This document shows, piece after piece, positions 29,226 to 40,575 of a DNA stretch of 64,000 nucleotides. The translations under genes and the position numbers were made by a program. The notes beneath the pieces are model-generated. The model did no database searches, had not been told where the DNA came from, and saw nothing but the letters and a program-made list of their open reading frames with translations. Source of the DNA: Fundidesulfovibrio putealis DSM 16056 (lineage in GTDB: Bacteria > Desulfobacterota > Desulfovibrionia > Desulfovibrionales > Desulfovibrionaceae); the NCBI RefSeq assembly GCF_000429325.1, contig NZ_AUBQ01000003.1, positions 372,001 to 436,000 of the forward strand. Reading direction: 5' to 3'. The number at the start of each line of letters is the position of its first letter. Position 1 is the stretch's first letter.

Positions 29226-29432
29226 CTTTACCATGGGTTCAATCCGCGAAACGATTCCGGCCATTCGTCTTCAGGCTCGCGAGTCATCCTCCGCCAGCCC
29301 TTCCCATCCCGTGAGGGACAGTGGTTTCGCTGGCTTCGTCTTCGCATACTGCGGCGGGACCGCCACGGATTTGCACCGTGTTCCGTAATGGCCGGATATG
29401 GTCGGGAACGGCTAGCCCGGCAGGACGAGCGT
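29226..29432 (-). promoter_or_regulatory. Cobalamin riboswitch aptamer
   Basis: On the minus strand GGTGCAAATCCGTGGCGGTC then CCGCCGCAGT (29348-29382) matches the cobalamin aptamer core; CCACTGTCCC follows, then the B12-box-like GAGCCTGAAGAC near 29266-29281. Spacing and order agree with the class. It feeds into the terminator at 29185-29222. Aptamer ends are approximate. Confidence 0.9.
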
Positions 29433-35879: not shown

Positions 35880-37040
35880 ATGCGCAAGCTTAAGATCGTG
35901 GTTGGTGGGTACGCCGTAAGCTTCCCTCTGGGGGGCCAGATCTGGATGATCATGCACTACATGGAAGGGCTCAAGCGCCAGGGGCATGATGTAATCTTCG
36001 TGGAAGACACGGCCGACTGGGCGCTGCCGTTCGACCCCAACAAGGGGTTCGCCTCAGCCGATTCGAGCCACGGTCGCGCGGTGCTGGACGACGCCTTCAA
36101 GAGCATCGGCCTCTCCGGACGCTGGGCCTACAACACCATCTTCGAGAACAAGCTCTACGGCATGGAGCGCGCCGACCTGGACCGCTTCTGCGAAAGCGCG
36201 GACCTCTTCCTGAACGTGTCGGGCGTCATCCCGCTGCGCGAAAGCTACATGAAGGCCAAGGTCCGGGCCATCATCGACACCGACCCCATCTTCACCCAGT
36301 CCAAGATCGCAACCGACGAGTGGACCCGCGACTACTTCCTGCAGCACGACGCGTTCTTCACCTGGGGGCACAACATTCCCACCGGGTCCACGGGCGTGGC
36401 CCTCTCCGGCATCGAATACACGCCCACCCGCGTGCCCATCGTCCTGGACATGTGGCCCAACGTGGAAGGCTCCGGCTCCGGCTTCACCACCATCGGCAAC
36501 TGGGACGCTCAGGGGCGCGACATCGTCCACGAGGGCAAGAAGCTCTCCTGGCGCAAGTCCGAGAAGTACGAGCAGATCATCGACCTGCCCGAGAAGCTCC
36601 CCGGCGTCACCCTGGACCTCACCATGAGCGGCATGAAGGAAGACGCGCAGCGCTTCGCCGCCCACGGCTGGAAGGTGAAGAACGCCCTGGAGCTCTCCAA
36701 GGACATCTGGGGCTACCACGACTACATCCTGAACTCCACGTCCGAGTTCACCGTGGCCAAGGAACAGAACATCCAGCTGAAATCCGGCTGGTTCTCGGAC
36801 CGTTCCGCCAGCTACCTGGCCTCGGGCCGCCCCGTCATCGTGGAGGACACGGGCTTTGGCACCTACCTGCCCGTGGGAGAGGGGCTGGTCACCTTCGACG
36901 GCGTGGACAACGCCAAGGCCGCCATCGAGACGGTGCTTTCCGACTACCCTAAACACCGCAAGGCCGCCCGGAAAATCGCCGAGGAGTTCTTCGACGCCGA
37001 CAAGGTGCTCACCGGCATTCTGAAGACCTGCGGATTTTAG
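35880..37040 (+). CDS. GT-B-like glycosyltransferase family protein
   Basis: 386 aa, no signal peptide. The N-terminal GGYAVSFPLGGQIWMIMHYM and the C-terminal SGRPVIVEDTGFGTYLPVGE with EGLVTFDGVDNAKAAIE resemble the acceptor and donor halves of GT-B enzymes. FAVSRPVS-type or E-x7-E motifs are not obvious, so the activity is inferred from overall pattern. It is the second gene of the deacetylase operon and presumably acts on the same glycan. Confidence 0.7.
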   Translation: MRKLKIVVGGYAVSFPLGGQIWMIMHYMEGLKRQGHDVIFVEDTADWALPFDPNKGFASADSSHGRAVLDDAFKSIGLSGRWAYNTIFENKLYGMERADLDRFCESADLFLNVSGVIPLRESYMKAKVRAIIDTDPIFTQSKIATDEWTRDYFLQHDAFFTWGHNIPTGSTGVALSGIEYTPTRVPIVLDMWPNVEGSGSGFTTIGNWDAQGRDIVHEGKKLSWRKSEKYEQIIDLPEKLPGVTLDLTMSGMKEDAQRFAAHGWKVKNALELSKDIWGYHDYILNSTSEFTVAKEQNIQLKSGWFSDRSASYLASGRPVIVEDTGFGTYLPVGEGLVTFDGVDNAKAAIETVLSDYPKHRKAARKIAEEFFDADKVLTGILKTCGF

Positions 37041-37739: not shown

Positions 37740-38636
37740 ATGAAATTGATACTGTCCGCACTCCTGGCAATACTGTCCATCACCGTTGGTGCAGCCGGAG
37801 CCCAAGCTTCCGTCGTGAATTTCGGCGACTCGGTCAACGTCTGGTCCGGCCTGAAGAAGACGCCAGAACTGGCCAATCAGGACCAGAACGGCGTGCCTGA
37901 TCTGACCGGGGGGTCGATGACCTATTCAGCGGGGCACACCCTGACATCCATCACGCTGAACTATACCAACCACTACGCGAACCAGTCCTGGGGACAGTCC
38001 TCCTGGAACTCACTCGAAGCTGGCGACTGGTATATCGATGTGGATAACAACAACGCCTGGGACTACGTGATACACCGTCCCGATCAGGTGTGGGATTTCG
38101 ACAAGAACAAGTGGGTGGATAACACGGCATACCATCTGTACCAGACCAATGACAAGATACTGTATGGGACGTCGACAGCGTATGAGAATGGGAAGTTTGC
38201 CCAGTACGAGGCCTATTACGGCAACACCGACAACCGCGACTGGCACCCCTCCACAGTCAAGGATTCGATCCTGCCGTACGAATACGAGAAGAAGGTGAAG
38301 GGGAAGTACGTTTATACGACCGAAAACGCCAACAGCGGCATCCTCGACCTTGGCGTGGTCGGCTTCGACGGATGGGACAGCTTTTCGGAACTCGACCGGT
38401 TGTCCAAGTCCACGGCGGTCGGGTCCTCCACCTGGGACTTGAGCGGCATAGGCGGCATCGATTTCCTGAGCCTGATGGGCAAGGAAATAGTCATCGCCTA
38501 CACCATGACCTGCGCCAACGACGTCCTGTTCGAACACACCCGGGTCCCGACGCCCGAACCCGGCACCATGCTGCTCATGGGCCTTGGCATCCTCGGCGTG
38601 GGCTACCTGCGCAAGCGGTCCAGGTCCTCCCGCTAG
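37740..38636 (+). CDS. PEP-CTERM sorting-signal protein, unknown mature domain
   Basis: 298 aa. Signal peptide LSALLAILSITVGAAGAQAS. The C-terminus is TPEPGTMLLMGLGILGVGYL followed by RKRS, the exosortase sorting signal. The mature domain (about residues 25-265) is rich in Trp, Tyr, Asn and Asp (NNNAWDYVIHRPDQVWDFDK) and probably beta-stranded; no enzyme motif is seen. It is exported and sorted by an exosortase not present here. A sigma-54-type promoter precedes it. It ends a polysaccharide gene group, as is common for these proteins. Confidence 0.85.
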   Translation: MKLILSALLAILSITVGAAGAQASVVNFGDSVNVWSGLKKTPELANQDQNGVPDLTGGSMTYSAGHTLTSITLNYTNHYANQSWGQSSWNSLEAGDWYIDVDNNNAWDYVIHRPDQVWDFDKNKWVDNTAYHLYQTNDKILYGTSTAYENGKFAQYEAYYGNTDNRDWHPSTVKDSILPYEYEKKVKGKYVYTTENANSGILDLGVVGFDGWDSFSELDRLSKSTAVGSSTWDLSGIGGIDFLSLMGKEIVIAYTMTCANDVLFEHTRVPTPEPGTMLLMGLGILGVGYLRKRSRSSR

Positions 38637-38766: not shown

Positions 38767-38794
38767 AAGGCCGCCCCTTCGGGGGCGGCCTTTT
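38767..38794 (+). terminator. Rho-independent terminator with UUCG loop
   Basis: 11-bp perfect stem AAGGCCGCCCC with a TTCG tetraloop and its complement, then TT. It lies 130 nt past the PEP-CTERM stop and probably ends that transcript. Confidence 0.88.
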
Positions 38795-38803
38795 GCATTG
38801 GCC

Positions 38804-38831
38804 TGTACATGCCGGAAAACATGGTTATTAT
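38804..38831 (+). promoter_or_regulatory. Possible promoter of the tandem structured RNA
   Basis: -10 TATTAT (38826-38831) with TGTACA 16 nt upstream. It sits just after the terminator at 38767-38794 and would start a transcript near 38838. Confidence 0.45.
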
Positions 38832-38837
38832 GTAAGT

Positions 38838-39218
38838 AAGGCCAATGTGGCCAACCTAAGCGGAGGGGTGAGCGAAATAAACGCTTCAGATCATAATCCG
38901 CCCGAACAGGCGAAGGATGATTTGATTTGCGCAAGCGCACCGTAAGAGCGACACCTGAAGGAAGGGGAGGCTGCCGGACAATCCGGCTCCAGCGCCAGCA
39001 AATCACAGGCAGAGGCCCCGGTGGAAGTAAACCTCTCAAACCCGTTTGGAATGGTTGCAGGGAATGCAACAGGTAGGTTTTCCGAAATAAACGATTCCTC
39101 ACATAGCCAGCGCATCGAGGCGCATCATCAAAAGACCTGCGCAAGCGCAGCGTAAGAGCCACACCTGAAGGTAGGGGAGGCTGCCGGAGATCCGGTTATC
39201 GCGCCAGCAGGTCTTTTT
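38838..39218 (+). ncRNA. Tandem structured non-coding RNA, family not recognised
   Basis: Two copies of one RNA domain spaced 210 nt apart. Core A is 38924-39004 and core B 39134-39213. They share a 49-nt block with 46 identities (from 38929 and 39139), which includes CGTAAGAGC, ACACCTGAAGG and AGGGGAGGCTGCCGG. The closing stem is GATTTGC/GCAAATC in A and GACCTGC/GCAGGTC in B: two base pairs changed on both sides. CCGG hairpins (38974-38986, 39184-39195) and the block CGAAATAAACG (38873, 39083) are also repeated. Core B runs straight into seven Ts. There is no open reading frame with coding character. Ends are estimated. Confidence 0.75.
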
Positions 39219-39220
39219 TT
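39210..39220 (+). terminator. T-tract end of the structured RNA
   Basis: The 3' strand of the closing stem of core B (GCAGGTCTT) is followed by more Ts, so the folded core itself could act as the terminator stem. This is read from sequence only. Confidence 0.55.
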
Positions 39221-39306: not shown

Positions 39307-40575
39307 TCAATCTTTCAGCCTTCCGGCGCGGCAGTCCTCCACCCATTTGATCTCCCGGACGATTGATTCCACCACGGTGGGTGTCTGCAACTCCGGCGGA
39401 AGAACGTCGAAGGTGTAGGTCTCCACCTCCAGAGGCACGGACGGGGACACCAGCGGCAGGAAATCCTTCAGGAACTGCTGCGTGCTCAGGCATCCGGGCA
39501 ACTGCGCCAGGAATACCGGCAGATGAAAATGCACCCTCCAGCAGGCGGCGTTTTCGAGGCAGGACGGGGCGTCAGTTTCAGCAACGCGCCTCGCGGTCCA
39601 TTGCTTTTCCAGACCGCCGGACAAGCCCGCCGATCCAGTCGCACCAACCGTATGAGCCCGGTCAATCCTGCTCTCCACGTCCACCGTTCCATCCCCGACG
39701 CTCGCTCCAGCCGAGGCGGCCAGGGCCTCGCCCAAGTCGTCGAAGCGCACGAGGCCTCCGCCCTCATCAAGGGCCACGCACTGGTGCAGGTACACCGGCT
39801 CGTCGAAGCGCGCCAGGCGCGACAGGTCCGCGCAGGACAGGTGCAGGGCCGAAGACACCTGGACGTGCCCGATGTCCACGCCGTTGTCCGCGAGCTGTGC
39901 GAGCGACCATGCCGGATCCTCGAACTGCAAGGCCTGATGGCAGCAGTCGTAACAGACAGCCAGGGTTGCGCGCAGGTGGTCCGGCAGGTCAAGCCGGTCG
40001 AAAAGCGCTATCAGCTGCGGGGTGGTCTCCACCAGGCAGCCCGGCTCCGGCTCCAGGGACAGGCGGATGCGCTTGCCGGTGCGTTGGGCCAGGGCGTCCA
40101 GGCCTTCGGCGGCCCGGCGCAGGGCGGCGAAGGCCAGGTGCTCCTGGGCAGAGTCGAAATCCGCGCGAAAACCCACAGGCACGGTGGAGATGGACCCGGT
40201 TATGCTATCCGGGCCGTCAGGCAACCAGACCGCCAGCAGTTCCGCCAGCTTCAGGGTGTATTCCAGGCGGGCGGGGTCGCGCCAGTCCGGCTGGTAGACG
40301 CCTGATTTCACCGGGCGTCCGTGGAATGTGCCGTAGGGAAAGCCGTTCACCGTGGCCACGTACAGGCCATTCTCGTCAAGCCACTCGCGAAAGCGGAGGG
40401 CCTCCTCGGGCGTCACTTCCCGGCTGGCCAGCCCGGAGACGCGAAGCCCCACCGGGAACGGTCGATCCGGGCAGACGGCGGCCTTCACGGCCAGAGTGTG
40501 GGAGGCCAAGTTGGCGCGCGTCTGCTCCCAGGATTCGCCGGGGTGGATGTTGGTGCAGTAGGTGACGGGATGCAT
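39307..40575 (-). CDS. eboE: EboE-like protein (xylose isomerase-like TIM barrel)
   Basis: 422 aa. The N-terminus VTYCTNIHPGESWEQTRANL and internal NGFPYGTFHGRPVKSGVYQPDW, LEPEPGCLVETTP and CYDCCHQALQFED are characteristic of EboE proteins annotated as metabolite traffic proteins. The barrel carries His and Glu/Asp residues suited to a metal site. Ebo genes occur in cyanobacteria, algal plastids and some proteobacteria in links with secondary metabolite export or synthesis; the reaction is not known. The gene starts 2 nt after eboD. Confidence 0.82.
   Translation of the reverse strand: MHPVTYCTNIHPGESWEQTRANLASHTLAVKAAVCPDRPFPVGLRVSGLASREVTPEEALRFREWLDENGLYVATVNGFPYGTFHGRPVKSGVYQPDWRDPARLEYTLKLAELLAVWLPDGPDSITGSISTVPVGFRADFDSAQEHLAFAALRRAAEGLDALAQRTGKRIRLSLEPEPGCLVETTPQLIALFDRLDLPDHLRATLAVCYDCCHQALQFEDPAWSLAQLADNGVDIGHVQVSSALHLSCADLSRLARFDEPVYLHQCVALDEGGGLVRFDDLGEALAASAGASVGDGTVDVESRIDRAHTVGATGSAGLSGGLEKQWTARRVAETDAPSCLENAACWRVHFHLPVFLAQLPGCLSTQQFLKDFLPLVSPSVPLEVETYTFDVLPPELQTPTVVESIVREIKWVEDCRAGRLKD

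Follow-up and report, generated by a model that had tools for sequence, protein, structure and literature searches.

The described RNAs closest to the one analysed here are of several kinds. 6S RNA is one long hairpin. CsrB and RsmZ are stand-alone sponge RNAs with repeated sites, the glycine pair is a tandem riboswitch with two similar domains, and the GOLLD, ROOL and OLE families are present in Rfam. A 2024 survey of non-coding RNAs of Oleidesulfovibrio alaskensis used Rfam and Proksee (PMC11124144). No title or abstract in the open-licence literature was found to describe the RNA reported below; subscription papers on Desulfovibrio small RNAs may exist.

The window, i.e., the whole stretch of 64,000 nucleotides that was analysed, comes from Fundidesulfovibrio putealis DSM 16056. 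At positions 38838-39220 of its forward strand two RNA-like units lie side by side with an offset of exactly 210 nt. An initial annotation had described two cores at this spacing with 46 of 49 nt in common, and a recount returned the same number. Both closing stems named there were located and covary, with seven Ts behind the second, and the GTTGCA/TGCAAC hairpin is present. The GGCC hairpin exists too, one base off the 38841-38853 given for it. BLAST within the same genome aligned the units, W1 and W2, with 88% identity over 72 nt; the remaining four matches were just 14-15 nt long (E > 1). The features of the locus are as follows.

37740-38636, forward strand: upstream gene of a PEP-CTERM protein (Pfam)
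38768-38795, forward strand: intrinsic-terminator-like hairpin and TTTT after the PEP-CTERM gene (from sequence and fold; the consensus scan did not report it)
38804-38809, forward strand: predicted −35 element, TGTACA (TTTACA, TTGACA or TGGACA in relatives)
38826-38831, forward strand: predicted −10 element, TATTAT (promoter scan and aligned relatives)
38838-39220, forward strand: predicted two-module RNA transcript, start approximate (unit 1 has no T-run, unit 2 no above-chance promoter)
38840-38852, forward strand: P0, a GGCC/GGCC hairpin forming the variable 5′ element of unit 1 (fold and sequence)
38858-39004, forward strand: unit W1, one of the training sequences of model R1, which scores it at 149.3 bits
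38862-38866, forward strand: conserved GGAGG block of unit 1
38873-38881, forward strand: conserved CGAAATAAA of unit 1 (alignment A5)
38900-38913, forward strand: SL2 of unit 1, a hairpin with a loop deviating from the family NNNGAG
38924-39004, forward strand: 3′ domain of unit 1, with closing stem P1, P2 and P4
38924-38930/38998-39004, forward strand: P1 of unit 1, GATTTGC/GCAAATC
38935-38938/38992-38995, forward strand: P2 of unit 1, part of the 3′ domain
38973-38978/38982-38987, forward strand: P4 of unit 1, part of the 3′ domain
39054-39070, forward strand: hairpin 5′ of unit 2, GTTGCA (39054-39059) with TGCAAC (39065-39070), occupying the P0 position
39068-39213, forward strand: unit W2, likewise a training sequence of model R1, which scores it at 148.1 bits
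39110-39123, forward strand: hairpin SL2 of unit 2, GCGC-ATCGAG-GCGC (SL2 search)
39134-39213, forward strand: 3′ domain of unit 2 (alignment and fold), with P1 at 39134-39140/39207-39213, GACCTGC/GCAGGTC
39214-39220, forward strand: run of seven Ts, with P1 of unit 2 the predicted terminator
39307-40575, reverse strand: convergent downstream gene with a TIM-barrel match (Pfam AP_endonuc_2)

Judged by its predicted fold, the hairpin at 38768-38795 separates the PEP-CTERM gene from the RNA gene. Further upstream, at 35880-37040 on the forward strand, the window encodes a protein of 386 aa for which Pfam gave nothing at E ≤ 0.001; in congeners G001, G003 and G004 the RNA is preceded by a gene for a protein of equal length that resembles it by eye. 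A tRNA search of the whole window found none.

Homologues and covariation

A BLAST search of 59 genomes with the 381 nt of the window RNA (E ≤ 0.01) matched eight, six of them from the genus of the window, its own genome included. At the two matches in other genera (E 0.002-0.007) the DNA reads by eye as ordinary coding sequence. Model R1, built from eight units of the genus, found matches in 33 of 247 genomes of the family at E ≤ 0.05, including five of six congeners besides the genome itself; the sixth, G006, is 66% complete. Model R2, for which 36 units each contributed their 5′ half (71 nt) and which contains only four base pairs, matched 150 of 347 genomes of the order at E ≤ 0.1. At E ≤ 0.001 the matched genomes numbered 115 by hand count, all Desulfovibrionaceae, 33 of which had supplied training units; in the other families of the order there were eight matches, with E of 0.016-0.1. 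Phylum-wide, R2 matched 37 of 297 genomes at E ≤ 0.1, five within Desulfovibrionaceae and 32 outside. The best match outside the family had E = 4.5e-4 and the next 0.0055, and we take these outside matches as noise with one borderline case. Within one genus, g52, matches were weak (best 6.1e-4) and many genomes gave none. As far as we searched, then, the RNA family appears confined to Desulfovibrionaceae. In the genome of the window R2 pointed to one more copy, the third, which is diverged, has a single module (E 0.002; G000:C28:688043-688110, i.e., 1491-1558 of locus L094, minus strand) and shows a T-run after the closing stem; weaker second matches were obtained in congeners G001-G004.

Folding of 376 nt of the window RNA gave a z-score of −1.98 relative to shuffled sequences, with 2 of 100 shuffles as good; the fold being only moderately better than shuffles, energy alone would not prove structure. 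DNA was retrieved for 87 units, a subset of the R1 and R2 matches. Alignment A6 was made with MAFFT from 25 of them, trimmed at the closing stem and built with no structure fitting; units whose 3′ domain was judged unalignable with the window type are excluded from it. Paired cells made up 88.9% of its 585 cells, and 51 cells carried two-sided changes, against 13.9 in shuffles, none of 500 shuffles reaching as many. When the partner was shifted by 1-3 columns, pairing fell to 24-44%. P1, P2 and P4 were paired in 97.0%, 90.0% and 99.0% of cells, each with two-sided changes, and SL2 in 89.9% (96.5% on the 36 units of A5). The shuffle counts should not be read as probabilities, because the structure was derived from the very sequences on which it was counted, and close Solidesulfovibrio relatives fill 13 of the 25 rows. 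The strong covariation supplies the proof of structure that folding energy does not, and that the RNA family itself is real is practically certain.

The SL2 stems are diverse (GCGC/GCGC, GACGC/GCGTC, GGCGA/TCGCC, GGCGG/CCGCC, GGGCG/CGCCC, GGCAA/TTGCC), and the loop NNNGAG was found in 79 of the 87 units by a per-sequence search that gave this loop a bonus; W1 is among the eight units without it. GGAGG occurs in 83 of the 87 units, a conservation that is partly circular, as the search models contain GGAGG; it is missing from W2, which carries GGTAGG where other units have GGAGG, and from three others. The most conserved stretch falls outside the supported helices. Two further pairings were considered and dropped. 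A GGUG/CACC helix before CAUA was paired in 63.0% of cells with two-sided change in one of four pairs, and is not claimed. Pairing of GGAG with a CUC stretch beside P4, noticed by eye in A6, clashes with P4; GGAG and CUC occur together in most rows of Fundidesulfovibrio and Solidesulfovibrio, but X26, X27 and X32 contain GGAGG only. One module comprises a variable 5′ hairpin, a conserved purine block (AACGGAGGG...CGAAAUAAA), CAUA, the short hairpin SL2 (loop NNNGAG) and, on the 3′ side, a junction domain; P1, which closes this domain, can double as a terminator stem.

Rfam 15 was searched with cmscan at E up to 1, using the window stretch and 47 loci, some of them overlapping (20, 20 more and 7 from Solidesulfovibrio). 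Nothing near a gathering score was obtained, in keeping with the earlier assignment to an unrecognised class. None of the sub-threshold matches lay over the RNA on its own strand; a COG2908 match of 16.7 bits (cut-off 58.7) lay over it on the opposite strand. In the Rfam scan of the whole window the cobalamin riboswitch (29245-29418, minus strand, 75.2 bits) was the sole family passing threshold. The window-type RNA was also sought in phages and plasmids by distant blastn and in viral contigs with one pattern; neither gave a match, and both are weak negatives. Of two patterns run on genome contigs, the stringent one had no match and the looser one five loci.

Promoters, terminators and number of modules

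Upstream of W1 a σ70-like sequence, TGTACA-16-TATTAT, matches the consensus at 9 of 12 positions; the best match for W2 is 7 of 12, the commonest score of shuffled sequences. Matches of at least 9 of 12 precede 51 of the 87 units, compared with about 8.8 expected from mononucleotide shuffles, and 36 units have none. In 20 of the 25 units of A6, P1 is succeeded by a T-run no more than about 2 nt away (hand count). The exceptions are W1 and the units of G004, G002, G003 and G001, the last four of which have a later T-run. The terminator finder reported no stem in 23 of the 87 units and some spurious stems, so that the terminator claim is based on A6. The suggestion that the closing stem may double as a terminator is borne out by these counts.

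With a promoter at unit 1 only and a terminator at unit 2 only, a single two-module transcript of about 380 nt is predicted for the window. Congener G005 has two units, each with its own promoter-like sequence and T-run, and many relatives look like stand-alone genes. Neighbour genes vary between genera; the largest shared neighbour cluster is a convergent downstream protein at 14 loci, GGDEF-like by reading and without family call. In the window itself no same-strand gene lies downstream, the next gene being convergent, as initially annotated. The possibility raised there of a stand-alone RNA thus gains support, and homologues with covariation were found within Desulfovibrionaceae, where that annotation proposed to look for them. 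Its reading as a whole (structured RNA, unrecognised class, possibly stand-alone, terminator stem) is supported, and transcription of the family is very likely. The fused tandem is an atypical form: of the units read, most look single and some are paired, and a few loci have more. We infer that the pair in the window represents two single genes fused into one transcript, in which the first T-run and the second promoter are absent.

Unit pairs about 270-380 nt apart were also seen in other genera (L095, L096, L102, L103, L110, L111, L112 and L133), as was one about 2.4 kb apart (L109); some of these pairs have promoter-like and terminator-like sequences at each unit.

A long form of the RNA was found in eight Solidesulfovibrio genomes, each with one locus of 2-4 modules and a related 3′ hairpin. 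SL2 hairpins are 191-223 nt apart in this locus, and species differ by whole modules, so that module number varies between loci. Seven such loci aligned from the promoter to the start codon of an htpX-like gene (a reading of the protein start, without family call) span 768-1202 nt, with a terminator before the start codon. Besides their tandem modules, L154, L155, L113 and L161-L165 (e.g., L154 1228-2390) share a 3′ terminal domain of high conservation. R2, untrained on these loci, gave 29 matches at E ≤ 1 in nine of them (24,609 bases), all on the RNA strand, and 26 at E ≤ 0.001 with 16.5-32.9 bits; in the whole-genome search the same units had E of about 1e-6 to 0.01. The long RNA is tied to the window RNA through the R2 core alone. 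RNAalifold on 25 Solidesulfovibrio modules returned only 11 pairs, of which three covary; as the pairs of SL2 never vary there, this alignment is uninformative on SL2.

Possible modes of action

A multivalent docking RNA would be expected to show what is seen here, a conserved hairpin loop and purine block together with a number of modules that varies. We give somewhat less than an even chance to a trans-acting, stand-alone, protein-binding modular RNA, in which each module would be a candidate protein docking site and additional modules would bring more partners to one RNA, resulting in titration or scaffolding. Doubtful is the further idea of a new class of modular RNA scaffold of adjustable valency (single modules, fused pairs as in the window, or repetition into RNAs of about 1 kb) that would form the core of an assembly not yet recognised, of RNA and protein or of RNA only, in a bacterial family in which searches found neither Hfq nor ProQ.

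The purine block could equally act as a pairing seed. In a base-pairing regulatory RNA the AACGGAGGG seed would pair with CU-rich stretches of mRNAs, without Hfq or ProQ. The position of the most conserved stretch outside the supported helices fits such a role, as do the promoter-like and terminator-like sequences of many units and the multiple copies, paralogues being common among base-pairing small RNAs. However, Pfam searches found Hfq in none of 79 genomes of the family (none of the 65 at least 90% complete, and not in the genome of the window; 5 of 14 controls positive) and ProQ in none of the 79, own genome included (1 of 14 controls positive, E. coli), which argues against the usual chaperone-assisted pairing RNA. 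Moreover, a Shine-Dalgarno-like seed would not be able to pair with ribosome binding sites and so block them, and the covarying 3′ domain exceeds what pairing RNAs usually need. We consider this reading, the second in rank, unlikely. A decoy for the anti-Shine-Dalgarno of 16S RNA, holding 30S subunits on an exposed GGAGG without translation start, would fit the occurrence of the motif in nearly all units and the low number of start codons behind it. Start codons 3-10 nt behind GGAGG are fewer than expected from shuffles (8 against about 19 in 83 units); a mini-ORF at this position was rejected on the same count, and GGAGG is thus not the ribosome binding site of a small gene. The complementarity is limited to five bases, though, four units including W2 do without them, and the units were found by models favouring GGAGG, which leaves the decoy decidedly improbable.

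As for proteins that might bind, CsrA is encoded in 68 of 79 genomes of the family, own genome included, and ACGGA fits its motif, so a sponge of the CsrB/RsmZ type had to be weighed. Whole units contain more GGA (5.62 vs 5.07) and A.GGA (1.75 vs 1.35) than all 100 shuffles, and one of two Solidesulfovibrio arrays is enriched in GGA (44 vs 36.7, p 0.047) and AGGA (16 vs 7.8, 0 of 300 shuffles). Outside the conserved block, however, GGA is at the level of shuffles (2.89 vs 2.78 per unit), the window RNA has 10 against 8.5 (p 0.27), the GGA excess of the second array is not significant, and CsrA occurs also in genomes without an R2 match, e.g., G069 and G096. A CsrA sponge is therefore improbable. 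The tandem arrangement and the terminator stem around the second unit would suit a cis-acting leader or riboswitch pair, and a same-strand gene does follow in three g8 loci, as does the htpX-like gene behind the long RNA. Yet the downstream genes of the loci read vary in both strand and type, and the long form has its own terminator ahead of the next gene; ligand binding by the window RNA, which the initial annotation had proposed to probe, has no support, because its downstream neighbour is convergent. We regard this reading as very improbable. Finally, minus-strand ORFs of 154 and 74 aa overlap the RNA, but neither has a Pfam match, and given covariation and homologues a chance repeat or an opposite-strand coding region can be set aside almost completely.

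The RNA would represent a structured family that is missing from the catalogue and has multiple copies in many Desulfovibrionaceae genera, in a group where the 79 sampled genomes showed neither of the two standard small RNA chaperones searched. As nature provides loci with one, two and several modules, the effect of module number can be asked directly, and the covariance models with the named Solidesulfovibrio and Fundidesulfovibrio loci make the family testable.

Comparison with known RNAs

6S RNA is likewise a stand-alone structured RNA of comparable size; the single match of this genome to it (RF00013, 97.8 bits) sits at another locus than the window RNA. Tandem riboswitches such as the glycine pair share with the window RNA two similar domains in tandem, but the latter has no same-strand downstream gene. 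CsrB and RsmZ also stand alone and repeat their sites, and the Desulfovibrionaceae do encode CsrA; in the present RNA, by contrast, the unit of repetition is an entire module (about 190-220 nt), and GGA is not enriched beyond one block. The large ornate RNAs GOLLD, ROOL and OLE are likewise large structured bacterial RNAs (PMC12286853); the Solidesulfovibrio locus reaches about 1.2 kb from promoter to next start codon. No match to these three was present in the Rfam scan of Solidesulfovibrio loci L113, L115, L154-L156 and L161-L164. In contrast to them, the RNA described here has no Rfam match, its window type gave no hit in phages (blastn) or in viral contigs (one pattern), and it is composed of tandem copies of one module.
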